Below the pieces are notes generated by a model. It saw nothing but the letters and a program-made list of their open reading frames with translations. It searched no databases and was not told the origin of the DNA. From the NCBI RefSeq assembly GCF_000217715.1, contig NC_015666.1:3112270-3176269 (forward strand): a stretch of DNA of 64,000 bases, given 5' to 3'. Position numbers and translations under genes: made by a program. Of the stretch, positions 5,177 through 44,438 are shown one piece after another (the first letter of the stretch is position 1; each line of letters opens with the position of its first letter). The stretch is from Halopiger xanaduensis SH-6. GTDB lineage: Archaea; Halobacteriota; Halobacteria; Halobacteriales; Natrialbaceae.

Positions 5177-6106
5177 TTATTTCCCTCCGATGTCTTCGCG
5201 GTACAGTCGCAGGTAGATGAGCCCGTAGGTCAGCATGACCAGCAGCATGACGACCGCGATGGCGCTCGCCAGCCCCATGTTCTGGAGGTGGAACGCCTGC
5301 CGGTAGATGTACACCGGCAACACCATCGAGGAGTTGCCCGGCCCGCCGCCGGTCATGACGTAGATCAGCGTGAAGTGGTTCAGCGTCCAGAGGCTCATCA
5401 GCAGCGTCATCACGACCGCAACCGGCTGCAGGAACGGCAGCGTGATGTGCCGGAACGTGTCCAGCCGCGTCGAGCCGTCGACGCGAGCCGCCTCGTACAG
5501 GTCGCCCGGAATGCCCTTCATGCCGGCCAGGAAGGTCAGCATGAAGAAGGGGAAGTTCCGCCAGACCCAGGCGAGCATGATCGAGAACAGCGCGTAGCGC
5601 GAGCTCGCGAGCCACTGGATGCCGTCGGTGAGCCCGACCGTGCGGAAGAGCCCGTTGATCGCGCCGAGCTCGTAGTCGTACATCAGCCGCCAGTTGAAGG
5701 CGATCGAGATGAACGGGATCGCCCACGGGAGCAGAAGCAGCGTCGTCGCGATCGATCGGCCGTAAAACTCCCGATTGAGCAGGGTTGCGAACCCGAGCCC
5801 GATCAGGGCCATGATCACGACCGCTGCGAACGCCCACACCAGCGTGTTCCGCATCACGACCCAGAACTCCGTCCAGCCGACGATCCGGGCGTAGTGCTCG
5901 AGGCCGACCCACTCGGGGTCGCCGATGCCGTCGTACTCGAAGAAGCTGAGGTAGATTCCCCGGAAGAGGGGATAGACGCTGACCAGCCCGAGCGCGAACA
6001 GCGACGGCAGGAGGAACAGCCAGCCCCAGACGCTCTCCTTCGAGAGCCAGTGGTAGTACTCCCGTGGGAGTTCGAACTCGCGGAGCGTGCCTAATCGCGT
6101 TGACAT
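5177..6106 (-). CDS. CUT1 sugar ABC transporter permease, MalF-like
   Basis: 309 residues with six predicted membrane helices; the first follows a ~25-residue cytoplasmic N-terminus. The coupling loop YEAARVDGSTRLDTFRHITLP is the EAA motif. It is the first gene of a two-gene permease operon and has its own TATA element (6131-6138, minus strand TTTATA) about 28 nt before the ATG. The permeases can therefore be transcribed separately from the binding protein just upstream, which is sensible because binding proteins are needed in excess. Confidence 0.93.
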   Translation of the reverse strand: MSTRLGTLREFELPREYYHWLSKESVWGWLFLLPSLFALGLVSVYPLFRGIYLSFFEYDGIGDPEWVGLEHYARIVGWTEFWVVMRNTLVWAFAAVVIMALIGLGFATLLNREFYGRSIATTLLLLPWAIPFISIAFNWRLMYDYELGAINGLFRTVGLTDGIQWLASSRYALFSIMLAWVWRNFPFFMLTFLAGMKGIPGDLYEAARVDGSTRLDTFRHITLPFLQPVAVVMTLLMSLWTLNHFTLIYVMTGGGPGNSSMVLPVYIYRQAFHLQNMGLASAIAVVMLLVMLTYGLIYLRLYREDIGGK

Positions 6107-6130
6107 GTGTTAGTACCCATCAAGTTAATC

Positions 6131-6138
6131 TATAAACC
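6131..6138 (-). promoter_or_regulatory. TATA box of the malF-malG-like operon
   Basis: Minus-strand GGTTTATA in the 53-bp gap between the binding-protein stop and the permease ATG at 6106, at leaderless spacing. Confidence 0.55.
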
Positions 6139-6159
6139 TAGTGTAGCGTCACGGTCACG

Positions 6160-7722: not shown

Positions 7723-7750
7723 AGGTCTACTGAGAAGGTACATGGTATCG

Positions 7751-7758
7751 TATAAATA
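7751..7758 (-). promoter_or_regulatory. TATA box of the CUT1 binding-protein gene
   Basis: Minus-strand TATTTATA centred ~32 nt upstream of the ATG at 7722. It lies inside the longer open frame and therefore decides the start. Confidence 0.6.
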
Positions 7759-7983
7759 TCTTTTCAAAGTGGTATCCAGAATTAAACTACTGCCTGATCT
7801 ATCATTGGGTTGCCGTCGGGATCGGGCTTCGAGACGTCGGTATCGGCGGACAGAACGACTGGCCACCTAGCTAACGCGCGATACTTTCGAACGTAGACCG
7901 CCTTTCTATACCCATTATCTAGCCAACATATCGTGATCGATCACCATATTTTATTACGGTCCGTGCGGACGTGTCGAACTACG

Positions 7984-8175
7984 ATGGCAGTACAGCGTCT
8001 CTCGTCGCGAACCGTCGGGATGGCCGGCGTGCTCTCGCTCGCGTTTTTGGTCCTCGCGTACGCCGGCGTCCAGTACATCCTCGAGCAAGGGTGGGGGTTA
8101 GTGTTCGAAGTGGCGTACCTGCTGGCCTTGCTCATCGGCTTTGCGATCGTCGCGGATCGGCTGTTCGTCCAGTAG
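7984..8175 (+). CDS. Small membrane protein, two transmembrane helices
   Basis: 63 residues from ATG 7984. After a short N-terminus (MAVQRLSSRT) there are two hydrophobic helices, roughly residues 11-31 and 36-58, ending RLFVQ. The frame is open from 7933, but an AT-rich TATA-like element at 7947-7957 lies 27-37 nt before 7984, which favours this ATG and a leaderless mRNA. I recognise no specific family; such small double-helix proteins are common and mostly uncharacterised in haloarchaea. Confidence 0.7.
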   Translation: MAVQRLSSRTVGMAGVLSLAFLVLAYAGVQYILEQGWGLVFEVAYLLALLIGFAIVADRLFVQ

Positions 8176-8225
8176 TCGGCGGCCGGTGACGGACTCGAGG
8201 ACGAACCCGAGACTCACCACGAAAG

Positions 8226-8233
8226 AATTTATG
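8226..8233 (+). promoter_or_regulatory. TATA box of the chaperonin-like gene
   Basis: AATTTATG element centred about 29 nt before the ATG at 8259. Confidence 0.5.
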
Positions 8234-8258
8234 CAATACGAGAACGATACACAGGCCG

Positions 8259-9944
8259 ATGGATATGGCGGAGTCTAGCGCGACGATCGGCAGCTGGGAG
8301 CGGCTGTCGCCCGAGGAAACGAGACTGGGGATTCGCCGCGCCGCCCTCGAGATGGGCGAGCTGGTGCGGAGTACGCTCGGGCCGCTGGGCGTCGACAAGA
8401 TGATCGTCCGGCGCATGCAGGACGACCGGCTGCGCGGGTTCGTCACCAACGACGGCGTGGCGATCTTAGAGGAGTTCGAGGGCGAGACCGACCACCCGAT
8501 CGCGAACCAGTTCATCGGCCTCGCGGAGACCCACGAGGACGAGATCGGCGACGGAACGACCACGACGACCCTGCTGGCCAGCGACCTGCTCGCGACGGGG
8601 ATCGACCTGATCGAGGACGGCGTTCCCCCGGTCGCCGTCGTCGAGGGGTTCTCGATCGGCGCCCAGCGGACGCTCGAGGTCTGGGACGACGTCGGGATTC
8701 CCGTTGCGAACACCGGCCAGCCGACGACCCGCGCAGCGTTCGACGAATCGCGACTCGAGCGGATCGCCACCTGCGGGATGACGAACGGCCGCGCGGGCTC
8801 GTGGCCGCTCGAGCGGCTCGGCGACGACGTCGTGGACGCCGTCCTCCGCGCGTGGGAGCCCCGGCGGGGAACCGTCCATCTGGGCTACGTGTCGATCGAG
8901 GCGATTCCGGGCGGCGACGCCGCGGATTCCGAACTGATACGCGGGACGCTGGCGCCCTCCGAGCCGATGGTCGAGGGGACGCTTCCGGTCGACGGCGGCG
9001 TCCTCGTCGTCGACGGCTCGCTCGAGCCCCGGGAGATCCGCGCGTCCTCGGTCACGATCGACGGCGACTCCGCGGGCGAAATCGCCGGACTCGAGAACGA
9101 GGCCGCCCGCATCGCCGCGGCGATCGCTCGGGCCGACCCCGCGGCGGTGTTCGTCGCCGGCGACGTCACCCACGACGTCGGCACCGAACTAGCCCACCGC
9201 GATATCGCGTGCTTCCGCAACGTCAAGGACTCCGACGTCGAGGTCCTCTCGCGAGTTACGGGCGCGACGATCCGCGGCCCCGTCACGCCGACCGCACCCG
9301 CGTCCGTCGCGGAGTGCGGTCGCGGCGCCGTCCGGCTCCGCGAGGCGCAAGGCGACACGACCTGGCTCGAGGTCACAGCGCCCGACGGCGCCGATCCGCG
9401 GAGCGTCGGGCTCGTCGTCCGCGGCGGCACCGAGAGCGCCGCCGACGAGGCGCGACGGCGGATCAAGGTCGGCCTCAACGCGGTTCGCGCCGCGGTCAAA
9501 CGGCCGGTCGCGCTTCCCGGCGGCGGCGCGGCCGAACTCGAGGCGGCCCGGGCCGTCCGGGATCTGGCGCCGAAGTTCGACGGCCGCGAGCAACTCGCGG
9601 TCGACGCGTTCGCCGACGTGCTCGAGTCGATCCCGCGCACGCTCGCGCGGAACGCGGCCCGGGATCCGATCGACGCCGTAACCGAGCTGCGTGCGCGCCA
9701 CGACGCGGGGCACGCGCGGGCGGGCATCGACGCGAACGGCGACCTCGTCGACGACGTCGTCGCGGCCGGGGGCGCGCTCGACGCGCAACTGGTCCGGACG
9801 AGCAGCCTCGCCCGCAGCGTCGAGTTCGCGAACTCGCTGCTCAGGATCGACGGCGTCGTGCGAAACACCGCGCCGCCGTTCGATCCGGAGGACCTGCCGG
9901 GTGCCTCCGGGGCACCCGGTTCCCCCGGTACCCCTGACGCTTAG
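8259..9944 (+). CDS. Divergent thermosome/TCP-1 (group II chaperonin) paralogue, probable ATPase-defective
   Basis: 561 residues covering the whole group II chaperonin: N-terminal equatorial motifs STLGPLGVDKM (38-48), TNDGVAIL (63-70) and DEIGDGTTT (94-102), an intermediate/apical region, and the C-terminal equatorial block VALPGGGAAELE...IPRTLARNAARDPID...LLRIDGVV. Several near-invariant residues differ. The segment that should read like IEDAVKVV is IKVGLNAV, so the aspartate needed for ATP hydrolysis is Val404; RIDD has become RIDG; and the GGM-rich tail is absent. Haloarchaea usually have two or three canonical thermosome subunits; this looks like an extra, specialised one. It could cap or modify a hetero-oligomer. 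Its stop overlaps the stop of the convergent gene by 3 nt. Confidence 0.88.
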   Translation: MDMAESSATIGSWERLSPEETRLGIRRAALEMGELVRSTLGPLGVDKMIVRRMQDDRLRGFVTNDGVAILEEFEGETDHPIANQFIGLAETHEDEIGDGTTTTTLLASDLLATGIDLIEDGVPPVAVVEGFSIGAQRTLEVWDDVGIPVANTGQPTTRAAFDESRLERIATCGMTNGRAGSWPLERLGDDVVDAVLRAWEPRRGTVHLGYVSIEAIPGGDAADSELIRGTLAPSEPMVEGTLPVDGGVLVVDGSLEPREIRASSVTIDGDSAGEIAGLENEAARIAAAIARADPAAVFVAGDVTHDVGTELAHRDIACFRNVKDSDVEVLSRVTGATIRGPVTPTAPASVAECGRGAVRLREAQGDTTWLEVTAPDGADPRSVGLVVRGGTESAADEARRRIKVGLNAVRAAVKRPVALPGGGAAELEAARAVRDLAPKFDGREQLAVDAFADVLESIPRTLARNAARDPIDAVTELRARHDAGHARAGIDANGDLVDDVVAAGGALDAQLVRTSSLARSVEFANSLLRIDGVVRNTAPPFDPEDLPGASGAPGSPGTPDA

Positions 9945-10633
9945 AAGAGAAACGCGGTGGCGACGCCGAGCAGCGTCACCGGCAGCACGCTCAGGACGCT
10001 CTGCTTCTCGCCGATCTCGTACAGTTGCTGGACGACCGGCAGCAGCAGGAAACCGGTCACGATCCAAGTGAGCGCCTTGAGGACGCGGACGGCGTGCATC
10101 TGCGGCATGTCGTAGACGAACGAGTGGGCCGAGAGGGCGAACTCGACGGCCTCCTCGCCGGTTTGGGCGCCCATCGCTGCGGTCGCGCCCTCGGGAACGG
10201 TGATCGTCACGATCACCGCGGCGCCGAGCAGGAAGACCGGCGCGAACAGGACGCTCAGGTAGCCGCCGAACTTGAACGTCTCGACCGCCAGGTCGTGTTT
10301 GTCAGAGAAGTAACCGGCGATAGCGCCGACCAGGCCGAAGTAGAGGAACCACGAGAACGCGACGACGGCCGCCCCGAACACGAGGTTGACGCCGAGCGCG
10401 ATCGGCCAGCCGGGGAAGACGTAGCCCTCGACGACGATGTACGGCTCGCTCAGGTACTCGAACGCGCCGCGGGCGAGCGCGTGGAGCGCGAGTCCGACCA
10501 ACGCCGGCAGCCAGCCGTACCGGCCGACCACGTCGATCATCTCTCCGATGTCGTTCGCCCGGACGAGTTTTCGCCACGGCCTGATCGCCGTCCACTCGTT
10601 CCCGCGAGCGGTAGCGTTCGCGCGACGGCTCAT
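9941..10633 (-). CDS. Yip1-like polytopic membrane protein
   Basis: 230 residues with an ~45-residue cytoplasmic N-terminus and five hydrophobic segments. The pattern (GYVFPGWP..., FKFGGYLSVLFAPVFLLG, ALTWIVTGFLLLPVVQQLYEI) resembles the YIP1-domain membrane proteins of haloarchaea; function unknown. It is transcribed toward the chaperonin-like gene, and the two stop codons overlap. A T-rich TATA-like stretch (minus-strand TTTTTTACC, around 10651-10660) is just upstream of the ATG. Confidence 0.75.
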   Translation of the reverse strand: MSRRANATARGNEWTAIRPWRKLVRANDIGEMIDVVGRYGWLPALVGLALHALARGAFEYLSEPYIVVEGYVFPGWPIALGVNLVFGAAVVAFSWFLYFGLVGAIAGYFSDKHDLAVETFKFGGYLSVLFAPVFLLGAAVIVTITVPEGATAAMGAQTGEEAVEFALSAHSFVYDMPQMHAVRVLKALTWIVTGFLLLPVVQQLYEIGEKQSVLSVLPVTLLGVATAFLF

Positions 10634-10703
10634 ACCCTCACCTGTTTTCGGGCGGTAAAAAAGATGGCGCTCAGAAGCGCTACGACCGACGACTCGGTCG
10701 GAT

Positions 10704-11912
10704 TCACGGCGTCGGCGCCGCTTCCTGTTCTCGCTCGACGAGGTGGGCGATGTTGAGCCCCGTCTCAGTGTCGAACAGGTGCGCCTGCTCGAGATCCAGA
10801 TTCAGGAACACCTCGTCGGCGTCCTGCGGAATCGACTCGGGATCGATGAACGCCTTGCGCTCCGCGACTTCCTCCTCGGGCGCCGTCTCGTCGGTATCCT
10901 CGAGGGCGGCGGCGTCGCCCGAGACGAGCGTGTCGTCGCCCTCGCCCTCGAGTTCGAAGTACAGCAGGTCGCGAGCGCCGAGCGGCTCGATGATGTCGAC
11001 GGACGCGGCGATGTCGCCCGCGTCGCCGGTCCGGCTCACGGTGATGTGTTCGGGGCGGACGCCGAGCTTCAGGTCCGTGCTTCCGGCGGTCTCGATTTGT
11101 TCTGCGTGTTCGGGGTCGAGCGGAATGTCGACGTCGCCGGTGAGTCGGCCGCCGTTCTCGGCGGGTTCGTACCGGACGTTGAAGATGTTCATCGACGGGC
11201 TGCCGATGAACTGCGCGACGAACAGGTTCCGCGGATCGTTGTAGACTTCCCGTGGCGTGCCGACCTGCTGGAGTTCGCCGTGGTTGAGTATTGCGATCCG
11301 GTCGGACATCGTCATCGCCTCCTCCTGGTCGTGGGTGACGTAGATCGTCGTCGTGTCGAGTTCCTGCTGGATCCGCTGGAGCTCGGTCCGCATGTGCTTG
11401 CGGAGTTTCGCGTCGAGGTTCGAGAGCGGCTCGTCGAAGAGGAAGACGGCGGGCTCGCGAACGATGGCGCGGCCGGTCGCGACGCGCTGTTGCTGGCCGC
11501 CCGAGAGCTGTTTGGGCCGGTCGTCGAGCAGTTCCGGAATGCCCATCAGCTCGGCCGCGTCCTCGACGCGCTCGTAGATCTCCTCCTCGGGGAGGCTGGT
11601 CGAACGCTTGAGGCCGAACGCCATGTTCTCGCGAACGCTCAGATGGGGGTACAGCGCGTAGCTCTGGAAGACCATCGCGATGTCGCGGTGGCGCGGGGGC
11701 AGGAGGTTGACCCGCTCGCCGCCGATCGAGATCGTTCCGTCAGTGATGTCCTCGAGGCCGGCGACCATCCGGAGCAGCGTCGACTTCCCGGAGCCGCTCG
11801 GGCCGACGAGCGTGAGGAACTCGCCGCTTTCGATCGTCAGGTTGAAGTCTTCGACGGCGAGGATATCGCCGTCGTACACCTTCGTGACGTCCTCGAACTC
11901 GATCGAACTCAT
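10704..11912 (-). CDS. CUT1 ABC transporter ATPase, MalK/UgpC type
   Basis: 402 residues. Walker A GPSGSGKST is at 37-45, the Q-loop FQSYALYP at 82-89, signature LSGGQQQR at 136-143 and Walker B VFLFDE at 156-161. The H-loop THDQEEA follows, and then a C-terminal TOBE/MalK regulatory domain (~240-402) with an acidic insertion. TOBE-bearing ATPases energise CUT1 sugar importers and one can serve several permeases, so it fits the transporter at 4264-7722 despite the intervening genes. It is divergent from the sugar isomerase-like gene. TATA at 11937-11945, about 28 nt before the ATG. Confidence 0.93.
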   Translation of the reverse strand: MSSIEFEDVTKVYDGDILAVEDFNLTIESGEFLTLVGPSGSGKSTLLRMVAGLEDITDGTISIGGERVNLLPPRHRDIAMVFQSYALYPHLSVRENMAFGLKRSTSLPEEEIYERVEDAAELMGIPELLDDRPKQLSGGQQQRVATGRAIVREPAVFLFDEPLSNLDAKLRKHMRTELQRIQQELDTTTIYVTHDQEEAMTMSDRIAILNHGELQQVGTPREVYNDPRNLFVAQFIGSPSMNIFNVRYEPAENGGRLTGDVDIPLDPEHAEQIETAGSTDLKLGVRPEHITVSRTGDAGDIAASVDIIEPLGARDLLYFELEGEGDDTLVSGDAAALEDTDETAPEEEVAERKAFIDPESIPQDADEVFLNLDLEQAHLFDTETGLNIAHLVEREQEAAPTP

Positions 11913-11936
11913 ACCCGTTGCCTACGAAACCTATCG

Positions 11937-11945
11937 TTAATATTC
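11937..11945 (-). promoter_or_regulatory. TATA box of the malK-like gene
   Basis: Minus-strand GAATATTAA 25-33 nt upstream of the ATG at 11912. Confidence 0.55.
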
Positions 11946-12074
11946 TTTGGGAGGTGTTCGCGTGTGACTCGATATCGGGCCGGGTTCGCGCTCGAGGAGC
12001 CGCTCGATCTGTCGGCCGGAGATCGCCCCGATATATACACTTATGTGACAGGCCGACGCACGGTTGAAACGGAT

Positions 12075-13043
12075 ATGAAAGTCGGCGTACTCACGGCCCC
12101 GCTCGACGATCAGCCCCTCGATGAGGCGCTCGAGTACCTCGCGGGAATCGGCGTCGAAGCCGTCGAACTGGGATGTGGCGGCTTCACCGGCGACGGCCAC
12201 CTCAGCACGGACACCCACCTCGACGACGAGGACGCCCGGGTCGAAGTGCTCGAGGCGGTCGAGAAATACGACATGGAGATCAGCGCGCTCGCGACGCACA
12301 ACAACCCGCTCCACCCGGACGACGAGCGCGCCGCCGAGGACGACCAGCAGCTCCGCGACGCGATCGAGCTCGCCGGCCAACTCGGCGTCGACGCGATCAC
12401 TTGCTTCTCCGGGCTGCCCGGCGGCAGCCCGAACGACGAGACGCCCAACTGGATCACGGCCCCCTGGCCGAGCGAGCACCTCGAGGCGCTCGAGTACCAG
12501 TGGGACGTCGCGATCGACTACTGGAGCGAGATCAACGACCTCGCGGACGAGCACGACGTCGATATCGGGATCGAGATGCACCCGAACATGCTCGTCTACG
12601 AACCCCAGGGCATGTTGAAACTCCGCGAGGAAACCGGCGAGCGCATCGGCGCGAACTTCGATCCCTCGCACCTCTACTGGCAGGGGATCGACGTCACCGA
12701 GGCGATCCGCCTGCTCGGCGAGGAGGACGCCATCCACCACTTCCACGCGAAGGACACGAAGGTCTACGACGCCAACGCCCGCGAAAAAGGCGTGCTCGAC
12801 ACGGCGCCGTACACCGACGAGCCCGACCGCTCGTGGCTGTTCCGCTCGATCGGCTACGGCCACGACGAATCCCACTGGAAGGACGTCGTCTCGACGCTCC
12901 GGATGGTCGACTACGACGGCGCGCTCTCGATCGAACATGAGGACTCGCTGACCAGCGGCCGCGAAGGGCTCGAGAAGGCCGTCGACGTCCTCTCGCGGGC
13001 GGTCTTCGAGACGTCGCCGGGCGAGGCCTACTGGGCGGAGTAA
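12075..13043 (+). CDS. Sugar phosphate isomerase/epimerase-like TIM barrel (xylose isomerase-like)
   Basis: 322 residues from ATG 12075; the longer open frame running back to 10743 is antisense to malK and is rejected. AP-endonuclease-2/xylose-isomerase-like TIM barrel with the expected divalent-metal ligands: Glu in IGIEMHP, Asp/His in ANFDPSH, His in HFHAKDTK and the C-terminal Glu in SIEHED. Members isomerise or epimerise sugars, inosose or hydroxypyruvate. Its neighbour downstream is a Gfo/Idh/MocA dehydrogenase, a frequent pairing in inositol or keto-sugar pathways. AT-rich TATA candidates at 12031-12045 precede it; substrate unknown. Confidence 0.85.
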   Translation: MKVGVLTAPLDDQPLDEALEYLAGIGVEAVELGCGGFTGDGHLSTDTHLDDEDARVEVLEAVEKYDMEISALATHNNPLHPDDERAAEDDQQLRDAIELAGQLGVDAITCFSGLPGGSPNDETPNWITAPWPSEHLEALEYQWDVAIDYWSEINDLADEHDVDIGIEMHPNMLVYEPQGMLKLREETGERIGANFDPSHLYWQGIDVTEAIRLLGEEDAIHHFHAKDTKVYDANAREKGVLDTAPYTDEPDRSWLFRSIGYGHDESHWKDVVSTLRMVDYDGALSIEHEDSLTSGREGLEKAVDVLSRAVFETSPGEAYWAE

Positions 13044-13178
13044 CGGCGCTCCCCTATCATCGGCGGACGGACCCGTCGATCCGACCGATCCGGCCCGACG
13101 GGTGGAGATACCCGGCTGCGACACTGACGCGGACCCGACCTATATCCGTGCGCCCGACATATCGGCGATCGATACCGT

Positions 13179-14267
13179 ATGACGTACGACGTAATCCAGG
13201 TCGGGACCGGCGGCCAGGGCGAACGATGGTGCAAACAATACCTCCCGCCGAACGTCGAGGACGGGCTGATCGACGTCGTGGCCGCAGTCGACACGAACGA
13301 AGCGGCCCTCGAGAACGCGAAAGACGGCCTCGGGCTGAGCGGCGAGCAGTGTTACACCGACGCCGCGACGGCGTTTGCGGTACACGACGCCGACTGTTGT
13401 ACCGTCGTCGTCCCGCCGCAGTACCACGAAGACGTCGTCGACGAGGCGCTGGCCCACGACCTGCACATTCTCTCGGAGAAGCCGATCGCCGACACGCTGG
13501 ACGCGTCGGTTCGCATCGCGGAGAAGGTCGACCGCGCCGACAAGAAGATGGGCGTCACGATGAGCCACCGGTTCGACCGGGACAAGACGACGCTCCGACG
13601 GGAACTGCGATCGGGCGAGTACGGCTCGCTGGACTACCTGATGCTTCGATTTACCTGTAACTGCCGCTCGTACGGCAGTTGGGGCGCGTTTCGCCACGAC
13701 ATCGAGGATCCCCTGCTGATCGAGGGCGGCGTCCACCACCTCGATATCCTCGCGGACCTCGCCGACGCCCGCTGCGAGACGCTGTACGCACAGACGTGGC
13801 TGCCGGAGTGGGGCGAGTACGGCGGCGACGCGCAGGCGCTGATCAACCTGACCTTCGAAGACGGCACTCGCGCCGTCTACGAGGGCGCGAAAACCAACGC
13901 CGCCGCGCTCAACGGCTGGGGCAACGAGTACGTCCGCGCCGAGTGTCGCGACGCGACGCTCGAACTCGACGGCCGGCAGCTCGAGCGGTATCCCTACGAT
14001 CCGGACGCCGAACCCCAGCTCGGCGAGGGTGTCGACGAAACCGATGCCGAGCGGGTTCCGCTGCTCGAGGGAGAGAAGTGGGCGAACACCCTGCTCGTCG
14101 AGCGGTTCGTCGAGTGGCTCGACGGCGGCGAACCGATGGCGACGAACGTGCGGGAGAACCTCCAGTCGATGGCGCTCGTCGAAGCGGCGATCCGGAGCAG
14201 CGAGACCGGCGAACCCGTCGCCGTCCAGGAACTGCTGACGGACGCCGTCGAATCCGTTTCGGTGTGA
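13179..14267 (+). CDS. Gfo/Idh/MocA family NAD(P)-dependent sugar dehydrogenase
   Basis: 362 residues. The N-terminal Rossmann fold starts GTGGQGERW (residues 9-17), the active-site motif is EKPIADT, and the C-terminal alpha/beta domain contains GGVHHLDIL with the catalytic His. The family oxidises or reduces sugars, inositols or sugar acids. It differs clearly from the xylose dehydrogenase XacA as I recall that sequence, so I do not assign that role. The gene follows the TIM-barrel isomerase by 135 nt and has its own TATA-like CCTATATC near 13139-13147. A keto-sugar or inositol route is one possibility. Confidence 0.85.
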   Translation: MTYDVIQVGTGGQGERWCKQYLPPNVEDGLIDVVAAVDTNEAALENAKDGLGLSGEQCYTDAATAFAVHDADCCTVVVPPQYHEDVVDEALAHDLHILSEKPIADTLDASVRIAEKVDRADKKMGVTMSHRFDRDKTTLRRELRSGEYGSLDYLMLRFTCNCRSYGSWGAFRHDIEDPLLIEGGVHHLDILADLADARCETLYAQTWLPEWGEYGGDAQALINLTFEDGTRAVYEGAKTNAAALNGWGNEYVRAECRDATLELDGRQLERYPYDPDAEPQLGEGVDETDAERVPLLEGEKWANTLLVERFVEWLDGGEPMATNVRENLQSMALVEAAIRSSETGEPVAVQELLTDAVESVSV

Positions 14268-14974
14268 TTGGATCGAGGATTCCCCGGTTCGTCGACTGCG
14301 CCCGTCTCGAGTACGCGTCTCGGCTGCGACGACACTGTTACTGACGGCAATCAGTATTTGTGATCGCGCCGTAACCGGTCGCGGACGCGCGAGTGCCGCC
14401 GAAATCACTGCATACCGATTCGATCCCTACTGGAGGCCGGTTCTGTTCCTAAAAACATTATTATCAATGAGAGAACGACGTGTGGTAAACATGAACTAGC
14501 ATCGAAACGGTCGGTCGACGGTCGTTCGCCCCCTCCTCGCTTCCCGACCTGAAACTGTCGAAGAACGGCATCAGAGCGACGAAGAACCGACTACTCGTCC
14601 GTAGTGACGATCGTCGAAACGCCCGACGACGGACGGCCGCGGCAAATAAATTACAGCCGTATGGCTGTAATCGTACGTCGCGGGACGAGTCCCGTGCACT
14701 GGCATCTACCAGCCGGTAATACGGCCGACGAGCGGTATCGGCGATCGACGGTGGAGGTCAAATCTAAGATTACGCACAGTAAACGCCGTTTAGTATGAGT
14801 ACATCGCATTCTGTATGTTGAAGCTGCGCTCGTGCTACAGTCCATGGGCGGCGAGCGAGCGATCCGATCCGTTCGCCGTTCGTTTTTCGCTTCCGCCCCG
14901 ACCGACGACCGGCGATCACCTCGACGGGCCCGATTTCTCCGCTATACAATCGCGTTCTGTGTAGGCGGAGGATC
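14268..14974. other. 707-nt intergenic region with an orphan promoter-like segment and two palindromes
   Basis: No convincing gene. Around 14453-14495 an AT-rich element (ACATTATTATCAATGAG) is followed at promoter spacing by ATG AAC TAG, a two-codon frame. Palindromes occur at 14651-14670 and 14681-14694. The short frames at 14604-14798 (+) and 14651-14845 (-) overlap these palindromes, lack recognisable content and are not called. Confidence 0.5.
14651..14670. repeat. Perfect 8-bp inverted repeat with 4-nt centre
   Basis: TTACAGCC, then GTAT, then GGCTGTAA. The size and symmetry are those of a dimeric-regulator operator, or a short hairpin if transcribed. It is followed 10 nt later by a second palindrome, CGGGAC-GA-GTCCCG (14681-14694). 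Confidence 0.6.
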
Positions 14975-16423
14975 TTAGAAGCTGTCGTAAACAGTCTTTT
15001 CGATGGTGTAGAAGTCGATGCCCGCGTCGCCCTGCTCGCGCCAGGTCTCGCTCGAGGAGTTCTTGACGCCGCCGAAGGGAACGTGCAGTTCGAGGCCAGA
15101 GGTTTTCTCGTTGACCTTCGCGACGCCGGCTTCGATCTCGCGGACGAAGCGTTCGGCCTCGGAGTGGTCGTCGGTGACGATGCTGGCCGAGAGGCCGTAC
15201 TGGACGTCGTTGGCGACCGCGAGCGCCTCGTCGAACTCCTCGACTTCGAGCACGGTCAGGACCGGACCGAAGACCTCCTCCTGAGCGATGCGGTAGTCGT
15301 TCTCGACGCCGGTGAAGACCGTGGGCTCGACGAAGTGACCGTCGCCGAAGCGGTCGCCCTCGGGCTGGCCGCCCCCCGTCTCGAGGGTAGCGCCTTCGTT
15401 CTCGGCGATCTCGATATAGTCGAGCGTGCCCTCGAGTTCGTCTTCGCTTACCTGCGGACCCATGTCGTACTCGTCGCCGGGGCCGATCTCGATGGCCTCG
15501 GCTTCGGCGACGACGGCGTCGACGAACTCGTCGTAGACGTCCGTGTGGACGACCGCCCGCGAGCAGGCGGTACACGACTGCCCGGTCGTTCCGAACGCGC
15601 CGCCGGCGACGATTTCGGCGGCCGTTTCGACGTCGGCACTGTCGGAGACGACGGTCGGGTTCTTACCGCCGAGTTCGGTCTGAACGCGCTTGGCGTCGTC
15701 GGTCGCCTGGTCGTAGACCAGCTGCCCGACCTGGCCGGAGCCGGTGAAGGAGACGGCGTCGACGTCATCGTGGGCGACGACCGCGTTCCCGGCGGTAGCG
15801 CCGAATCCGGTGACGACGTTCGCGACGCCGTCGGGGATACCGGCCTCGTCGAGGGCCTCGAAGAGCTCCAGCGCGACGGCCGGGGCGACCTCCGCGGGTT
15901 TGAGCACGAGGGTGTTACCGGTCGCGAGCGCGGGTGCGATCTTCCAGGCCGGGATGGCGATCGGGTAGTTCCACGGAGTGATGAGGCCGGCGACGCCGAC
16001 CGGTCCGCGGACCGTGTAGAGGGTCGTTTGCGGGCCGCTGGCGCTTTTGACCGTCCCCCCGAGGTCGCGGGTCTTCTCGGCGTAGTAGTAGAAGATGTCG
16101 ATCGCGCGCTGCACTTCGCCGCTGGCCTCGGCGTGGGCCTTGCCCTCTTCGCGCGTGAGGAGAGTCGTCAGCTCTTGTTTGCGGCCCTCGAGGATCGACG
16201 CCGTCTCGCGCAGGATCGCACCGCGATCGGGTGCGGGCGTATTTGCCCACTCGTCCTGTGCGGCGGCGGCCGCCTCGACGGCCGCGTCGGCGTCTGCGGC
16301 GCTCGATCGCTCGTACTCGGCGACGACGTCGGTCGGTGCGGCGGGGTTCGTCGTTTCGAACGTCTCGCCGGTTTCCGACTCCGTCCACTGCCCGTCGACG
16401 TAGTTGTGGTACCGCTCAGCCAT
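14975..16423 (-). CDS. Aldehyde dehydrogenase, probable 2-oxoglutarate semialdehyde (2,5-dioxopentanoate) dehydrogenase
   Basis: 482 residues from ATG 16423; the frame extends upstream to 16633, but the extension lacks homology-like content. ALDH motifs: oxyanion Asn in PWNYP (~150-154), NAD-binding FTGSGQVG (226-233), general base Glu250 in TELGGKNP and catalytic Cys284 in TGQSCTACSR. The last motif is characteristic of alpha-ketoglutarate semialdehyde dehydrogenases (XacF of Haloferax), which make 2-oxoglutarate in the final step of oxidative pentose degradation. The FAH-type dehydratase at 18769 would supply its substrate. Divergent from the binding-protein gene at 16704, so the ~280-bp region between them is shared regulatory DNA. 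Confidence 0.87.
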   Translation of the reverse strand: MAERYHNYVDGQWTESETGETFETTNPAAPTDVVAEYERSSAADADAAVEAAAAAQDEWANTPAPDRGAILRETASILEGRKQELTTLLTREEGKAHAEASGEVQRAIDIFYYYAEKTRDLGGTVKSASGPQTTLYTVRGPVGVAGLITPWNYPIAIPAWKIAPALATGNTLVLKPAEVAPAVALELFEALDEAGIPDGVANVVTGFGATAGNAVVAHDDVDAVSFTGSGQVGQLVYDQATDDAKRVQTELGGKNPTVVSDSADVETAAEIVAGGAFGTTGQSCTACSRAVVHTDVYDEFVDAVVAEAEAIEIGPGDEYDMGPQVSEDELEGTLDYIEIAENEGATLETGGGQPEGDRFGDGHFVEPTVFTGVENDYRIAQEEVFGPVLTVLEVEEFDEALAVANDVQYGLSASIVTDDHSEAERFVREIEAGVAKVNEKTSGLELHVPFGGVKNSSSETWREQGDAGIDFYTIEKTVYDSF

Positions 16424-37266: not shown

Positions 37267-40200
37267 TCAATCGTCGGTCAGCGATCGCGACTCGAGGCCG
37301 GCCGTCCCGTCTTCTATCTCGAGGTACTCGTCGGGCGCACAACCGAGCGACCGATGCGGACAGTACTGACAGTGCTCGCCCGGCGTCGTCTCGAGGTAGG
37401 ACGGATCGTCGACGGCCTCGAGCGTCTCGCGGACGCTCGACCACGGGGGGAGGTCGTCGGGGTCGAACAGTTCGACGCGCGGTTCGTTGGCAGTATTCGC
37501 GTCCGCGCCCTCGAGATCGCCGACGTAGACGTAGCCGACGGCGCCGATCGGGTCGTCGAAGCGCCGCTCGCAGGCTCGGGCGTACAGCGCCAACTGGACC
37601 GCGCTGTCGGGGTCGATCCGTTCGGCCGTCGTCTTGTAGTCGAGGACGGCGAGGTCGCCGGCTCGCTCTTGTGTCCGCGTCAGTCCTGCATTCGCGTCGG
37701 CGGTCACTTCCGCGGGCAGCCGCCGAATCGAGTCCACGTACCCGATCACGTCCCCCGCTACGCCGTCGACCGACGACAGCGAGAACGGCACCTCGGCCGC
37801 GAGCGGTTCCCACTCCGCGACCGGCCGGCCGAACGCGGCCGCCGTCGCCTCGAAGTACCGGTCGATGCAGGCCAGCACCGGCTCGCGGTGCTCGAGTAGA
37901 TCCCGCGCGGTCAGGTGTCGAACGGCGGCCTCGCGCCACTCGGCGCGCGTCTCGTAGTCTCGGTAGAACGCCTCTTCGGCGACGTCGTGGAAGACCGTGC
38001 CGACGATCCGCGAGCCGCTGGCCGCGTTCTCGTCCGGCGAATCGACCGTCCCGAGGGGTAGCGGATCGTCGATCGCCGTCACGACGTGCTCGAGGTAGTG
38101 CTTTCGCGGACAGGTGTCGTGGGTCTCCATCGCGCTGTAGCTGTGGCGCATCGCAACCGGGAGTTCGGTCGCGTCCGAGAGCGTTTCAACCGGGAACCGG
38201 ACGGTATCGGTCGTCAACGCCGAGGGCTGGCGACCGCTCGGCAGCCGGATGGACTCGCGCACGTTCCCGTCGCCGTGGCTGGCGGCGTCGGCCGCTGGGA
38301 GTAGTGTCCCATCGCGTAACAGCCGCCCAAGCTGGTGGACGGTTTCGATCGCCTCGCGCGTCTCGAGCGGTTCGACGTCCCGGTCGTCGTAGTCGCTGTA
38401 GTAGGTGATCGAGCCCGGGGTCACGTCGGCGGAGCGGGCGATTTCGTCGGTTCGATCGGCGACCGTCTCGGGGTACTGCGTCTGGACCCGCTCGAAGCTC
38501 TCGGTCAGCGACGACCAGAGGTTCATCCGCTGGCCGGCGGTCGACCACTCGATGTCGGCCGCGAGGCAAGCGTCGGCCGTCGAGACGCCCAGTTCCTCCT
38601 CGCCGCCGTCGTAGTCGTACTCGGCGCCGAAGACGAACAGGTGGTTCTCGGCTCGAGTCAGCGCGACGTGGAGGACGCGCCACTCCTCCGCGACGGTCTC
38701 GGCGGCCAGATCCGCGAGTAGCGGCGAGTCGACCTCGTCGTCGAGGGTCGCCGCGAGCAACCGCTCCTGTGCGCGTTGGGCGTAGTCCGACTCGACGCAC
38801 CACTCCTCGTCGGAGAGGTAGGGGACGAGCACCGTGTCGAACTCGAGGCCCTTCGCCTGGTGGACGGTCATCACGTCGATCGAGTCCGACGACTGCGTGC
38901 CCCGCGTCCGTTCGCTGCCGCCGCCTCGAAGCGTTCGCTCTAACGCGTCGACAAATTCGGGCGTCAGCGTGCCGACGACGGTCTCGGGATCGTAGCGCTC
39001 GACGAACCGGTCGAGGTGATCGAGTTCCGCTCGCTCCTCGTCCGTGAGGAACCACTCGAGCCGCGTCAGATCGCGGAACCGGCGGACAAAGCCCGAGAGC
39101 GGGTAGACGTCCCGCAGCGTCGCGAGTTCCTCGAGGTGGTCGCGCGCCGTCTCGAGGCGGCCGGGGTTTTCGAGGTCGTCGGGATCGATATCAAAGACGG
39201 CGTCGTAGAGCGATCCCTCGCGTCCCCGACGCCGCTCCTGCAGCGTTCTCAGGTCCCCCTCCGAGAGCCGGTAGCGATACAGCAGCACCCGCCGGAGGTG
39301 GACGTCTGCGTCCGGATCGACGAGCGCGCGGAGGTAGGAGAGTACCGTCCGAATGCCGGGCGAAATCTCGCCCCGCGGCGAGCCGGAAATCTCGTAGGGG
39401 ATCCGCCGCTCCCGGAGTTCGTCCGCGACCGCCTGCGCGTGGCGGTTCGTCCGGACGATGACCGCGACGTCCTCGAGGCTCCGCTGGGGAACGGTTTCGG
39501 CTTCGCCGTTGAGCAGCCTCGAGACGGTCGTCGCGACCTGGTCGGCCGTCGACTCGGGGATGTCGGCGCTCTCGACTTTGACGACGCGGTCGACGGGCTC
39601 CGCGGTGTCGTCCGCGTTCTCGCCGCGATCCCGATCGACCTCGCGCAGCGTCTTCGAGGACTGGAGCCCGTAATCGCAGTAGTTCGTGAGATCGAGAATC
39701 TCCTGGCGCGAGCGGAAGTTGAGCTCGAGTTCGATCGACTCGTGGTCGTCGTACTCGTCGGCGAGCCGATCCAGCCCCTCGCGGTCGGTGCCCCGCCAGC
39801 CGTAGATCGCCTGATCCTTGTCGCCGATCGCGAGCAGGTTCGGCCGGTCGGGGCCGCCGGTCAGTTCGGTGATGAGGCCGAACTGCGTCTCGTCGGTGTC
39901 CTGGAACTCGTCGCAGTAGACCTGTTCCCACTGACCGGTGATCTCGTCGGCGATCGCCTCGTCGTCCAGCAACTCCGTGGCCGTCCGCACCAGTTCGTCG
40001 AAATCCAGCGCCCGCTCCTCGGCGAGGGTTTCGTGGTAGTCCGCGTAGACGTCGGCGTAGTGGCGCGCCAGCCGGAGGAACTCGACGTAGTGTTTCAGCC
40101 GGCCGAACGGGCTCTGCTCTATGCGCTCCGTTTTCTGCCGCCAGATCTCGTTGCCGAACAGCGCCCGCGGCAGCTGTTTTGTCGTCGGCTCCTCGAGCGA

Positions 40201-41028
40201 GAGCGCCTCGATGGTCTCGGTCACGCAGGTCTGGAGGACCCGCAGGTAGCGGTCGACGTCCTGCACGACGTCGTCCTCGCGGAACGGTTCGGGCGACTCG
40301 GCGATCTTCTCGCGGCAGTACTCGACGAGTTTCCCGTAGCCGACCAGCGACTCGCGGGCCGTCTCGAGGTGCTCGTCGCGGTTGAAGTATCGCAGGCCCT
40401 CGTTGTCGAAGGAGAGGTTCCGACCGGCGCGGCGCTCGAGCCAGAGGACGAACTCGTTGCAGAGTTCGATCGTCCGCACGTCAGGGAGCCCCGCACGGAG
40501 TCGCTCGGGGGTGACGTCCTCTTGGCTCATCGTCCGGATGAAGTCGTCGACGGCGTCGGTGAGGTCCGACCGGGGTCCGTTGCGCTCGGGCGAGGCCGCG
40601 AAGCCGTAGTCGTTCGTCGCGAGCAGGCGGCCGACGATCCGGCGGCGCGTGTGCTCGGTGACGATCTCGAACTCCGGCGAGTAGCCGAGGGAGTAGGCGT
40701 ACTCGCGGACGAGCCGGTAGCAAAACGAGTGGTACGTGTAGACGTCGATGGCCGCCGCGGTCTCCGGGTCGAGCCGCTCGGCGACGGCGTCGCGGATGCT
40801 GCCGGCCGCCTCGTTCGCGAAGGTAAGCACCAGCACGTCGTCCGGATCGACGTCGCCGTTCTCGATGGCGTGCTCGATCCGCATGAGCATCGTCGTCGTC
40901 TTCCCGGTGCCGGCGCCCGCGTCGACGGAGATACAGGCCGCGTCGCTGTCGATGACCGCCCGCTGGTTGCCCTTCGGCTCGAGGCCCGCTTCTGCTGTGA
41001 CGTCTCGTCGCTCGGTGTCTTCAGCCAT
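37267..41028 (-). CDS. AddA/UvrD-like helicase fused to RecB-type nuclease with Fe-S cysteines
   Basis: 1253 residues from ATG 41028, which overlaps the upstream stop by 8 nt. All SF1A helicase motifs are present: Walker A AGAGTGKT (37-44), motif II YCDEFQDT, motif III IGDKDQAIYGWRGTD, motif IV LNFRSRQEI, motif V DVMTVHQAKGLEFD and motif VI LHVALTRAENHLFVFG. The C-terminal ~300 residues form a RecB-type PD-(D/E)XK nuclease: GYVDSI and LDYKTTAER supply the acidic and Lys residues. One Cys in ETHDTCPRKHYL and C-x2-C-x5-C near the end (GEHCQYCPHRSLGC) would hold a 4Fe-4S cluster. Size and layout match bacterial AddA; the cluster is more typical of AddB and Cas4. Predicted 3'-5' motor and end-resecting nuclease. 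Confidence 0.88.
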   Translation of the reverse strand: MAEDTERRDVTAEAGLEPKGNQRAVIDSDAACISVDAGAGTGKTTTMLMRIEHAIENGDVDPDDVLVLTFANEAAGSIRDAVAERLDPETAAAIDVYTYHSFCYRLVREYAYSLGYSPEFEIVTEHTRRRIVGRLLATNDYGFAASPERNGPRSDLTDAVDDFIRTMSQEDVTPERLRAGLPDVRTIELCNEFVLWLERRAGRNLSFDNEGLRYFNRDEHLETARESLVGYGKLVEYCREKIAESPEPFREDDVVQDVDRYLRVLQTCVTETIEALSLEEPTTKQLPRALFGNEIWRQKTERIEQSPFGRLKHYVEFLRLARHYADVYADYHETLAEERALDFDELVRTATELLDDEAIADEITGQWEQVYCDEFQDTDETQFGLITELTGGPDRPNLLAIGDKDQAIYGWRGTDREGLDRLADEYDDHESIELELNFRSRQEILDLTNYCDYGLQSSKTLREVDRDRGENADDTAEPVDRVVKVESADIPESTADQVATTVSRLLNGEAETVPQRSLEDVAVIVRTNRHAQAVADELRERRIPYEISGSPRGEISPGIRTVLSYLRALVDPDADVHLRRVLLYRYRLSEGDLRTLQERRRGREGSLYDAVFDIDPDDLENPGRLETARDHLEELATLRDVYPLSGFVRRFRDLTRLEWFLTDEERAELDHLDRFVERYDPETVVGTLTPEFVDALERTLRGGGSERTRGTQSSDSIDVMTVHQAKGLEFDTVLVPYLSDEEWCVESDYAQRAQERLLAATLDDEVDSPLLADLAAETVAEEWRVLHVALTRAENHLFVFGAEYDYDGGEEELGVSTADACLAADIEWSTAGQRMNLWSSLTESFERVQTQYPETVADRTDEIARSADVTPGSITYYSDYDDRDVEPLETREAIETVHQLGRLLRDGTLLPAADAASHGDGNVRESIRLPSGRQPSALTTDTVRFPVETLSDATELPVAMRHSYSAMETHDTCPRKHYLEHVVTAIDDPLPLGTVDSPDENAASGSRIVGTVFHDVAEEAFYRDYETRAEWREAAVRHLTARDLLEHREPVLACIDRYFEATAAAFGRPVAEWEPLAAEVPFSLSSVDGVAGDVIGYVDSIRRLPAEVTADANAGLTRTQERAGDLAVLDYKTTAERIDPDSAVQLALYARACERRFDDPIGAVGYVYVGDLEGADANTANEPRVELFDPDDLPPWSSVRETLEAVDDPSYLETTPGEHCQYCPHRSLGCAPDEYLEIEDGTAGLESRSLTDD

Positions 41029-42142
41029 CGAATCGAACCTCCTCGGCGATGTACTCCCCGCAGCAAACCGTGTACGCGCAATCGGGGCAGGCGTGCTCCG
41101 CGACCTGTTCCCACCGATCTGACGGGTCGAACCCGCCCGCGACGATTCGACCGACGACCGACGCGAGTCGGTTATCGACCGTCTCGTTTCGGTGTTCGTG
41201 AGTCCTGCCGTAGGTGAGGTGATCGATGTAGACGTCGGTGAGGTCGACCGGCTCGAGGTCGGTCTCGACCGTTCCGCGAACCCAGTTGACCGACGTGCCC
41301 GATCGGTCGGCCAGCGGAATCTGGACGTAGCGACAGGTGCGGTCCTCGAGGCCGAGCCGATCACACAGGTTCCGCAGTCCGTCGAGCACGACGGCGGTCT
41401 CGAACAGCGCGCCCACGGAGCCGGGTTCGAACGCCTCCGCCTCGGGGTCGAAGTGGTCGACGAACAGCTCCGCGACGCGCTCCCAGTCGGAGCGGTAGCG
41501 CAACAGCCCGAGCGGTCGGACCGTGGGGACGAATCGAACCCCGACGACTGACGAGCCGTCGCCGTAGACGTAGTCGACGGCCACACCGACCGTTACCTCG
41601 TCCGGCCCTCCGTCGAGGGTGCCGTCGAGATCCGGCGTGACGTCGCTCGAGAGCCGGATATCGGGACCGAGCAGGTCGTCGGCGCTCGCGGATCCGTCGC
41701 TGGTCCGGAGCAGTTGGCCGACGCCCGCCGCGTGATCTGCACCGACGGCTTCGACGTACGCCGTCACCGTCGCCTCGAGGACGCGCCGTTCGTGGCGGCG
41801 CTGTTCTCGGGAGTGGAACCGTTCGTCGTGTTCGTTCCACAGCGTTGCCAATCGGTCGAGCGCGACGTCCTCGAGGGCGTCTGCAGCGTCGTCGTTGGTA
41901 CCACTACCACTATCACCGCCATCGTCGATTTCGACCCGCTCGAGTGCGGTACAGAGAGCCCGGCGTAGCAGGTCGATGCGGTCCGCGGTCGCGGCGGCCG
42001 CATCGTCCTCGTCGCCGTCGAACTCGTGGACGTGCGCGAACTCGTACCGGCGCGGACAGCGGAGGTAGGTTCGGATGCCGTCGGCGGAAAGGATCGGCCG
42101 ATCCTCGCCCGTTTCTCCGCCGGTCGCGGCACTGTCAGTCAT
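41021..42142 (-). CDS. AddB C-terminal-like / Cas4-like protein with Fe-S ligands but degenerate nuclease centre
   Basis: 373 residues. Near the N-terminus is YLRCPRRYEFAH, and at the C-terminus C-x2-C-x5-C (EHACPDCAYTVCCG). Together these give the four-Cys iron-sulphur staple of AddB and Cas4 nuclease domains. In between, VGVAVDYVYGDGSSVVGVRF corresponds to the catalytic region, but the expected (D/E)-x-K strand is VGVRF, so nuclease activity is doubtful. It overlaps both neighbours by 8 nt, in an operon with the helicase-like protein upstream and the AddA-like protein downstream. Together with the upstream gene it has the length of one bacterial AddB. Confidence 0.75.
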   Translation of the reverse strand: MTDSAATGGETGEDRPILSADGIRTYLRCPRRYEFAHVHEFDGDEDDAAAATADRIDLLRRALCTALERVEIDDGGDSGSGTNDDAADALEDVALDRLATLWNEHDERFHSREQRRHERRVLEATVTAYVEAVGADHAAGVGQLLRTSDGSASADDLLGPDIRLSSDVTPDLDGTLDGGPDEVTVGVAVDYVYGDGSSVVGVRFVPTVRPLGLLRYRSDWERVAELFVDHFDPEAEAFEPGSVGALFETAVVLDGLRNLCDRLGLEDRTCRYVQIPLADRSGTSVNWVRGTVETDLEPVDLTDVYIDHLTYGRTHEHRNETVDNRLASVVGRIVAGGFDPSDRWEQVAEHACPDCAYTVCCGEYIAEEVRFDG

Positions 42143-44438
42143 TCCGGACCACCTCGCCCGCCGCGAACTCGAACTGCGAGCGGACCGCCTCGGCGAGTTC
42201 GTCGTCGACGTCGCCCTCCTCGAGGACGACGGCGATTTCCTCGAACAGCTCCTCGGTGTCGGCCAGATCGGCCTCGCCGCCCGTGCTCGCCTCGCGAAGC
42301 ACCCGCTCGAGTTCGGCGCGGGGCTGGTCGAGCAGCGCCTCGAGCGCGTTCGTCTCGCCGTGGATCGCGGCGCCGGCCGCGGCGTCGGCGTCCTCGAGGG
42401 CGAGCCCGGGCGTCGATTCGAGCAGCTTCAAGTAGCGAGAACGGTCGTAGGTGCGGCGCAGGCCGCCGGAACCGCGCTCGTACGAACAGCAGTAGAGGCG
42501 GGCCGTCGCCGCGCGGGCGCCGAGCGCGAGCCGGCGCCGGGCCCGCTGGGCGTGGTAGGTCTCGAAGGGGTCGCCGTCGGCCGTTGCGAACGTCGCTTCG
42601 AGGTCCTCCGTGGAAGGGTCGGTGACGGCCGGGTAGTGGGGCATCTCCCGGAGCCACGCCGACGGGAACAGTTGGGTGAGGAACTGCTCGCCCGGATAGG
42701 TGTCGTCGATCAGGTCCAGCAGGAAGACGACCTCGCGGGCGTCGTACTTGAGGTCGTCGACGGCGCAGACCGTCACGCCGCCGGTCGGGGACCGGGTCTC
42801 GACCGCGTGGACGTAGGGCGCGTCGTATCTGATCGTCCGCCGGAGCATCCGGTGCAGCCCCTCCCAGTCGGGCCCCACGAGGTCCGTCTCCTCGACGAAC
42901 CGGGCGATCTCGAGCACGCGGCGGACGCTCGCGTACTGCTCGCGGGCGTCGACCCAGTCCTCGCCCGCGGCGATCCGGCCCTTCAGATCCGTCCGGAGGA
43001 GCCACCGCCGGAGCGAGTCGGTGATGCTCGCGCCGGTACAGTCCTCGAGCAGGGCGGGCGAGAAGTCGTCGACGCGGGCGCGCAGGCGCTCGAGTTCGCG
43101 GTCGTAGTCGGCGTCGCCGGCGGTCGTCGCGCCGGCGTCGATTCGGGGCCCGTCGCGTTCGCGCTCGCACTGCACGCTGATGAACGCGTAGAGTTCGTTC
43201 ACCGCGGGATCCTCCGCGAGCGACGGCGTGCCGATCGTCGCGGTCGGGACGCCAGCCTCGCGGAGTCGGCGCCGCGTCTCGGGGACCCGCTCGATGCTCG
43301 GCACCGCGACGGCGAACGCGTCGTAGCTCCGGTCCCGACGGTCCGAAAGCGACTGGATCTCGGTGGCGACGGCGCCGACCTGTTCGCGGGCGGTTCCGGT
43401 TCGGATGTGTCGGGCGCGGCCGACCGGCTCGCGGGTCGCACCGGTTGCCGTTTTTCGGTCCCGCGTCCCGTCGTCTCGAGTCGTCTGATTGGCGGCTTGG
43501 GGCCTCTCGCCGGTCGCGAGAAACCTCGCGATCGCCGCGTGGGGTGGCGAGCTCCGGTCGGCATTCGCAGCGCCGCCGGCTGCGATAGCGTCGGGGTCCG
43601 ACGCCGAGCCCGGCGAGACCGGGACCGTCTCCACCTCGAGGCGGTCCCCGACCACATCGTCGATGGTTCCCGGCTCGACGCGCGTGCGTTCGACGCTGGC
43701 GTGGCGCTCCCCGAGACAGACTAACTCGACGTCGCCGGTGAGCGCGGCGAGGTACCGACGATCGAGCCGGCGGTACTCCTCGAACTCGACCGCGAGGACG
43801 GCGTCGAACGAAGCCGTTACACGATCGCGGAGGCCGTCGGCGTTCGCCTCGAGGAGATCGACTGCCCGGGGGATCACGTCCGCCCGCTCGACGAACCCGC
43901 GGGACTCGAGTTCCTCGTGGAAGCGGTCGTTCATCGCGTAGAGGAAGGCCAGGCAGTCGTGGACCGCCCGCTCGTCCAGGTCCGCAAGTCGAAGCCGCTG
44001 GCGGGTCGCCTCGAGCAGCAGTTGCCCGACGTCGCGGGTGAAGCTCTCGTGGGCCGCGGCCCGCTCGAGGTAGGGCGGGACCTCGCGGCTCGCGCCGTCG
44101 ATCACCAGCGAGATGAGTTCGATACGCTCCTCGTACTCGAGTCGGTCCAGCGTCGGGTCGTACTCCTCTACGACCTTCGAGGCGTGTTCCGGCACCGACT
44201 CGACTCGCGGGGACTGCGGAGTTCCGTCGGCCACCTCGGCGCCGGCGAGCGCGTCGGTGAGCGACTCCAGTCCCGCCGGGTGTCGCTTGAGCACCAGCAC
44301 GTTCCGCGGGCCGTGTTCGGCGGCCAGCGCGGCGTACTCGTCGGCGACGAACTCGAGGAGGGCGTCGCTCGGCGCCGGCGCGGCCAGCAGTTTACAGCGC
44401 CCCTCGAGATCGGCGTCGGCGGTGCGGGACCGAGACAT
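42135..44438 (-). CDS. AddB/RecC-like inactivated helicase subunit
   Basis: 767 residues. The N-terminus (LLAAPAPSDALLEFVADEYAAL) sits where an SF1 P-loop would be but lacks G-x-GK(T/S). Further on are degenerate helicase-fold segments. Around residue 570, VCAVDDLKYDAREVVFLLDLIDDTYPGEQF matches the AddB/RecC pattern in which a strand ending in FVLGL-D-x-FP precedes the last helicase motifs. An acidic, low-complexity insert lies around 255-330. It is the first gene of the three-gene operon, so it probably acts as the scanning or scaffold subunit. I infer an AddB-like role from order, length and these motifs; overall similarity must be low. Confidence 0.7.
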   Translation of the reverse strand: MSRSRTADADLEGRCKLLAAPAPSDALLEFVADEYAALAAEHGPRNVLVLKRHPAGLESLTDALAGAEVADGTPQSPRVESVPEHASKVVEEYDPTLDRLEYEERIELISLVIDGASREVPPYLERAAAHESFTRDVGQLLLEATRQRLRLADLDERAVHDCLAFLYAMNDRFHEELESRGFVERADVIPRAVDLLEANADGLRDRVTASFDAVLAVEFEEYRRLDRRYLAALTGDVELVCLGERHASVERTRVEPGTIDDVVGDRLEVETVPVSPGSASDPDAIAAGGAANADRSSPPHAAIARFLATGERPQAANQTTRDDGTRDRKTATGATREPVGRARHIRTGTAREQVGAVATEIQSLSDRRDRSYDAFAVAVPSIERVPETRRRLREAGVPTATIGTPSLAEDPAVNELYAFISVQCERERDGPRIDAGATTAGDADYDRELERLRARVDDFSPALLEDCTGASITDSLRRWLLRTDLKGRIAAGEDWVDAREQYASVRRVLEIARFVEETDLVGPDWEGLHRMLRRTIRYDAPYVHAVETRSPTGGVTVCAVDDLKYDAREVVFLLDLIDDTYPGEQFLTQLFPSAWLREMPHYPAVTDPSTEDLEATFATADGDPFETYHAQRARRRLALGARAATARLYCCSYERGSGGLRRTYDRSRYLKLLESTPGLALEDADAAAGAAIHGETNALEALLDQPRAELERVLREASTGGEADLADTEELFEEIAVVLEEGDVDDELAEAVRSQFEFAAGEVVRND

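Follow-up and report, generated by a model that had tools for sequence, protein, structure and literature searches.

A haloarchaeal gene trio probably encodes an AddAB/AdnAB-type helicase-nuclease with a two-gene AddB and a single working nuclease

Three overlapping open reading frames on the minus strand of the 64,000-nucleotide stretch of the Halopiger xanaduensis SH-6 genome analyzed here (the window) encode proteins of 767, 373 and 1,253 amino acids (genes 1, 2 and 3, respectively). Together they probably specify one DNA-end helicase-nuclease of the AddAB/AdnAB type that serves in housekeeping break processing, with AddB present as two proteins and the gene 3 product as the sole working nuclease. 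The computed basis of this reading consists of gene order, co-occurrence, predicted folds, motifs, catalytic-residue loss and purifying selection; complex formation, polarity, end-processing activity, Chi-like control and repair as the main role are features that we infer. Two observations go beyond a first-pass annotation of this DNA, namely, the catalytic loss in gene 2 of the window's lineage and the presence of an accessory, defense-linked sister clade.

Gene 1 (positions 42135 to 44438), gene 2 (41021 to 42142) and gene 3 (37267 to 41028) all lie on the minus strand. The open reading frame coordinates and the sequences at the junctions bore out the 8-nt overlaps reported in the first-pass annotation, with ATGACTGA shared by genes 1 and 2 (42135 to 42142, minus strand) and ATGGCTGA shared by genes 2 and 3 (41021 to 41028, minus strand). 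The lengths of ~1,160 and ~1,230 residues given there for AddB and AddA were also right, as the Bacillus subtilis proteins in the PDB have 1,166 and 1,232 amino acids, respectively. Gene overlaps in the loci of relatives were usually 4 or 8 nt. A sequencing error or frameshift as the source of the AddB split was ruled out, as roughly a hundred loci show this arrangement of separate, briefly overlapping genes.

When searched singly, gene 1 had no meaningful match in Pfam, NCBIfam or the PDB sequences, but matches were obtained with a family profile and a structural model. The profile, built from 45 relatives and run against all PDB sequences, detected B. subtilis AddB as the best match (4.8e-8), followed by UvrD1 (2.9e-7) and AdnA (1.9e-4); the alignment covers only AddB residues 50 to 353, the ionic latch of AddB being E129-R629. 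In an AF2 model (pLDDT 81.6, pTM 0.82), residues 12 to 758 superposed on residues 2 to 768 of AddB, the N-terminal two thirds of that protein (Z 22.7, rmsd 6.5, 620 residues aligned), so that an AddB fold was found over the full length of a protein for which the absence of any AddB/RecC fold had been named as the decisive negative outcome. The score for AdnA was a tie (Z 22.0). As the match of residues 12 to 689 to active UvrD helicases was also high (Z 26.5), the assignment to AddB rests on the length, the C-terminal helices, the profile match and the gene context. The C-terminal helices (residues 695 to 758, after residue 690) have counterparts in AddB and AdnA but none in UvrD.

A Walker A motif was absent from gene 1, and the N-terminal P-loop was absent from all 109 distinct relatives, in agreement with the earlier description of a P-loop-less, helicase-like protein. 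One regular-expression match to Walker A, at residue 689 of a single relative (L100), was attributed to chance. Judged by its model, the gene 1 product is a motor-dead SF1A helicase fold and hence an inactive AddB/AdnA-type helicase, for which we propose the role of a single-stranded-DNA-guiding or scanner subunit.

Gene 2 matched the Pfam family PDDEXK_1 (1.5e-5) above the Pfam cut-off. Its model (pLDDT 89.4, pTM 0.89) superposed best on the C-terminal nuclease domain of AddB (residues 783 to 1138; Z 15.4, 280 residues aligned), followed by AdnA (Z 14.6) and the Cas4-like ACE1 (Z 12.8), while the match to RecC was weak (Z 6.2). A gene 2 profile searched against the PDB sequences gave no AddB match and only chance matches, and the identity of gene 2 therefore rests on Pfam and fold. 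The gene 1 fold ends at AddB residue 768 and the gene 2 fold starts at residue 783, placing the split at the helicase/nuclease junction of AddB. Four cysteines, predicted to hold an Fe-S cluster, were invariant in an alignment of 39 sequences (A2): C29 (42056 to 42058, minus strand) and the set C352-x2-C355-x5-C361 (41060 to 41089, minus strand). The first-pass annotation had described a four-Cys Cas4/AddB-type protein; the cysteines and the AddB fold stand, but the catalytic aspartate and lysine have been lost, with R203-F204-V205 (41528 to 41536, minus strand) replacing D-Y-K in the alignments.

Of 109 distinct loci, 43 have retained the DYK motif of gene 2 and constitute a sister clade; the other 66 lack it, and intermediates such as LDYR and IEYR were detected among them. 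Pairwise dN/dS values between the window and six relatives ranged from 0.21 to 0.37, indicating that the degenerate protein is under purifying selection; a decaying pseudogene was ruled out by these values. With RFV in place of DYK, the gene 2 protein very probably has no nuclease activity in the window's lineage. Continued nuclease activity through a shifted set of residues, as might be suggested by the retention of H137 and D190 in the alignment and by the partial motif states of some relatives, is improbable: in the window's gene 2 the acidic residue of the motif has become R and the lysine V, and 'VRFVP' is itself almost unchanged across the family, as would fit a newly acquired structural role.

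Gene 3 combines a complete SF1A (UvrD-like) helicase with an intact four-Cys PD-(D/E)XK nuclease and resembles the motor subunits AddA, RecB and AdnB. Pfam matches were to UvrD-helicase (1.3e-53), UvrD_C (1.3e-27) and PDDEXK_1 (1.9e-19), and a gene 3 profile detected PcrA/UvrD, AdnB (2e-68), AddA (6.4e-60) and RecB (2.1e-36) among the PDB sequences. The helicase and nuclease motifs were invariant in the alignments. The core residues of the Walker A motif AGAGTGKT (residues 37 to 44; 40897 to 40920, minus strand) were invariant in alignment A3, as were the nuclease DYK (residues 1130 to 1132; 37633 to 37641, minus strand) and H1014, D1099, Q1145 and Y1149. A predicted Fe-S site is formed by C1220, C1223 and C1230 (37339 to 37371, minus strand) together with C973 (38110 to 38112), and these cysteines were invariant in alignments A3 and A4. 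A profile of the nuclease domain matched AdnA first (2.3e-7), with the C-terminal cysteines aligned, and then AdnB; AddA and RecB were absent from the PDB matches at E 0.1. The SF1A helicase and RecB nuclease recognized in the first-pass annotation are thus both complete, but the nuclease is of the four-Cys type and closer to that of AdnA than to that of AddA. In PADLOC, the GajB and DRT helicase models matched gene 3 by way of the common UvrD domain, and no model matched the window's genes 1 and 2. In the locus of one relative (L060, on a contig of 315,592 bases), gene 3 seems to be broken, with an open frame of ~530 amino acids.

Separate searches of 194 genomes of the order detected gene 1 in 71 genomes, gene 2 in 70 and gene 3 in 69. 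All three genes were present in 68 of the 72 genomes with any of them, and the exceptions were a weak match, fragments or broken loci; co-occurrence, which had been set as a test beforehand, thus indicated that the three genes are nearly inseparable. The survey of gene order across Halobacteria for which the first-pass annotation had called found the same order on one strand in 108 of 109 distinct loci, the remaining locus being cut by a contig end, and the AddB counterpart consisted of two genes in each of the 108 complete loci. Within the window's family, 109 of 125 genomes had a gene 1 homologue, some of these copies being of the accessory type, and 16 genomes had none. A scan of genome contigs detected relatives in Halobacteria only, and a search at the level of the phylum placed full-length relatives solely within the window's order. 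Seven weaker matches outside the order (E 1e-7 to 1e-13, frames of 1,019 to 1,096 amino acids) look like other UvrD/RecB-type helicases. No relative was detected when viral contigs were searched with the gene 1 alignment, and a literature search that covered few subscription journals found nothing on the trio.

These distributions bear on the alternative that gene 3 acts by itself as a helicase-nuclease of the UvrD-Cas4 type, genes 1 and 2 being optional regulators and not subunits. Both archaea and bacteria commonly have stand-alone UvrD-Cas4 fusions (PMC5704561), and all of the activities are present in gene 3 by motif. Near-perfect co-occurrence with short overlaps in about a hundred loci argues against this alternative, as does the finding that the gene 1 and gene 2 folds correspond exactly to the two portions of AddA's obligate partner; we regard it as very unlikely and retain the reading of one AddAB/AdnAB-type enzyme.

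A tree of gene 3 separated two sets of loci. Those without the gene 2 DYK formed one group (support 95/99), and the DYK-keeping loci made up the rest; the outgroup was very distant and the root is not fixed. The simpler reading of these sequences is that the catalytic motif of gene 2 was lost in the window's branch, once or in steps, because the DYK form is common to the wider nuclease superfamily; the direction of loss hence rests on homology to AddB and PD-(D/E)XK nucleases and not on rooting. Within its family, the window's clade is near-core. The DYK-keeping sister clade has a scattered distribution across the order and belongs to the accessory gene pool, frequently on plasmids; a match to gene 1 was present on 16 named plasmids, most of them with the sister-clade form.

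The two clades also differed in their neighbors. Window-type loci had CBS, NUDIX and proS genes as conserved neighbors, and a CBS-domain gene adjoined the operon in 35 of the 40 loci with long flanks. Among the 43 sister-clade loci, neighbors included PLD-family genes (17 loci), AAA/DUF4143-type ATPase genes (17 loci), Piwi genes (11 loci, nine of which also had PLD) and an SbcD/SbcC-like pair (3 loci), with at least one of these in 25 loci; none was detected at the 66 window-type loci, some of which had short flanks. On annotated plasmids, restriction-modification and BREX-5 genes were also found near the accessory trio, and some loci lacked all of these neighbors. Copies near Piwi, PLD-family and AAA/DUF4143 ATPase genes were present in one locus at 5151 to 16421 (L199) and in L063, L174, L178 to L181, L187 and L190, and these Piwi-adjacent copies are attached to the known haloarchaeal Argonaute-PLD defense system. 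The paper on that system (APAP; PMC11442185) places a helicase gene beside some ago-agaP operons, and UvrD helicases with PD-(D/E)XK motifs have also been recorded as a group within Argonaute operons (PMC6299218). On a Natrinema zhouii plasmid (L200, 5215 to 16339), genes for an SbcD-like phosphoesterase and an SbcC-like ATPase were located just upstream of the trio, as also in L057 and L073; the juxtaposition suggests a mobile end-processing set.

It could be argued from such neighbors that the trio is mainly a degrader of plasmid or virus DNA in all lineages and that the near-core form is a fixed defense gene and not a repair enzyme. The sister clade often lies beside Argonaute, PLD, AAA ATPase, SbcCD-like, restriction-modification or BREX genes, and RecBCD plays both roles in bacteria (PMC5030088). 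We consider this alternative unlikely in view of the absence of defense neighbors from the 66 loci of the window's clade and of the CBS, NUDIX and proS neighbors kept by a form that is present in most of the family. On the sequence evidence, the window's form is most likely a housekeeping break-processing enzyme that is either descended from the accessory form or sister to it.

For this enzyme, a mechanism can be proposed in which AddAB provides the homology basis of the strand path (PMC4824097). Gene 3 would be an ATP-driven 3'-5' motor that pulls the 3' strand and would be the one subunit with a functional nuclease. Docked on this motor, the gene 1 product would receive the 3' strand and either guide or scan it. 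The exit would be lined by gene 2, which, in the window's lineage, may have become a structural or strand-guiding element that keeps its fold and predicted Fe-S site. The assembled machine would enter the DNA at a double-strand end, unwind the duplex and use one nuclease for its degradation or resection, such that the window's form would have an AddAB-like body and a RecBC-like single nuclease.

Other candidates for break processing are present in haloarchaea. NurA homologues were detected in 111 of 116 genomes (Pfam family, above cut-off). A review describes Haloferax volcanii as being without HerA and NurA (PMC7776575); contrary to that review, NurA was also above the Pfam cut-off in our H. 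volcanii control. The genome that contains the window also encodes a Dna2-like protein in which a Cas4-type nuclease domain is combined with an SF1 helicase (around position 1791266 of C3). A second, two-gene AddBA-like pair with an 8-nt overlap lies at about 313223 to 318717 of C3 (L114, 4224 to 9717) and consists of an 873-amino-acid protein with a C-terminal nuclease and a 959-amino-acid UvrD helicase-nuclease; relatives of the 873-amino-acid gene were detected in 42 of 96 haloarchaeal genomes. NurA, the Dna2-like protein and this second pair indicate that the trio is not the sole candidate for break processing.

As a more speculative proposal, to which we give somewhat less than an even chance, the split-AddB machine may have arisen in mobile defense islands, after which one branch could have lost its second nuclease, become fixed on the chromosome of the window's family and now act there as a RecBC-like repair enzyme. 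In those of the islands that have Argonaute and PLD nucleases, the machine could supply or remove DNA ends and guides. If true, such an origin with loss of a nuclease would constitute an archaeal parallel of the change from AddAB to RecBCD. Processing of double-strand ends in haloarchaea is poorly known, and an archaeal AddAB-type enzyme composed of three separable proteins, with natural one- and two-nuclease forms, would allow the roles of the scanner, the second nuclease and the Fe-S domains to be tested separately. The two-nuclease form and its link to Argonaute and defense genes also provide a testable identity for the 'ancillary helicase' that PMC11442185 places beside the Argonaute-PLD system.

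The accessory trio can be compared with that system in that a helicase gene is noted beside some ago-agaP operons and that Piwi genes lie near 11 of the 43 accessory loci; the window's copy has no Argonaute or PLD neighbors. Neither the trio nor an AddAB-like machine is described in the available passages of the APAP paper. Mycobacterial AdnAB (PDB 6PPR and 7SJR) is similar to the trio in that the AdnA nuclease was the first match of the gene 3 nuclease and AdnA fits the fold of gene 1 as well as AddB does. However, AdnA is a single chain that includes a nuclease, whereas the partner in the trio has its helicase-like and nuclease portions encoded separately, and by sequence the gene 1 profile is closer to AddB than to AdnA (4.8e-8 versus 1.9e-4). 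Escherichia coli RecBCD resembles the predicted form of the window's lineage in having one working nuclease, on the motor. The helicase and nuclease folds of RecC are both inactive; those of genes 1 and 2 look inactive by motif loss, but the fold of gene 2 favors AddB over RecC (Z 15.4 versus 6.2). The trio differs further from RecBCD in that gene 2 keeps the four cysteines and is a separate protein, that the operon has no RecD gene and that no second motor gene adjoins it within the window.

The closest parallel is B. subtilis AddAB (PDB 3U44 and 4CEJ), which, like the trio, combines an inactivated helicase and a four-Cys nuclease domain (AddB) with an active SF1A helicase-nuclease (AddA). 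The motor features of AddAB are found in gene 3, with its complete SF1A helicase motifs and C-terminal RecB-type nuclease, and the four cysteines around the AddB nuclease domain are found in gene 2 as C29, C352, C355 and C361, for which an Fe-S cluster is predicted. Three differences were detected. AddB is a single polypeptide in B. subtilis and two genes here; its nuclease is catalytic in B. subtilis but degenerate in the window's lineage, with DYK kept in the 43 sister-clade loci; and the gene 3 nuclease has a four-Cys set and matches AdnA instead of AddA. As both the single AddB chain and a catalytic AddB nuclease are missing, the trio falls outside AddAB proper and, by analogy, is best called a putative variant that would work like AddAB.
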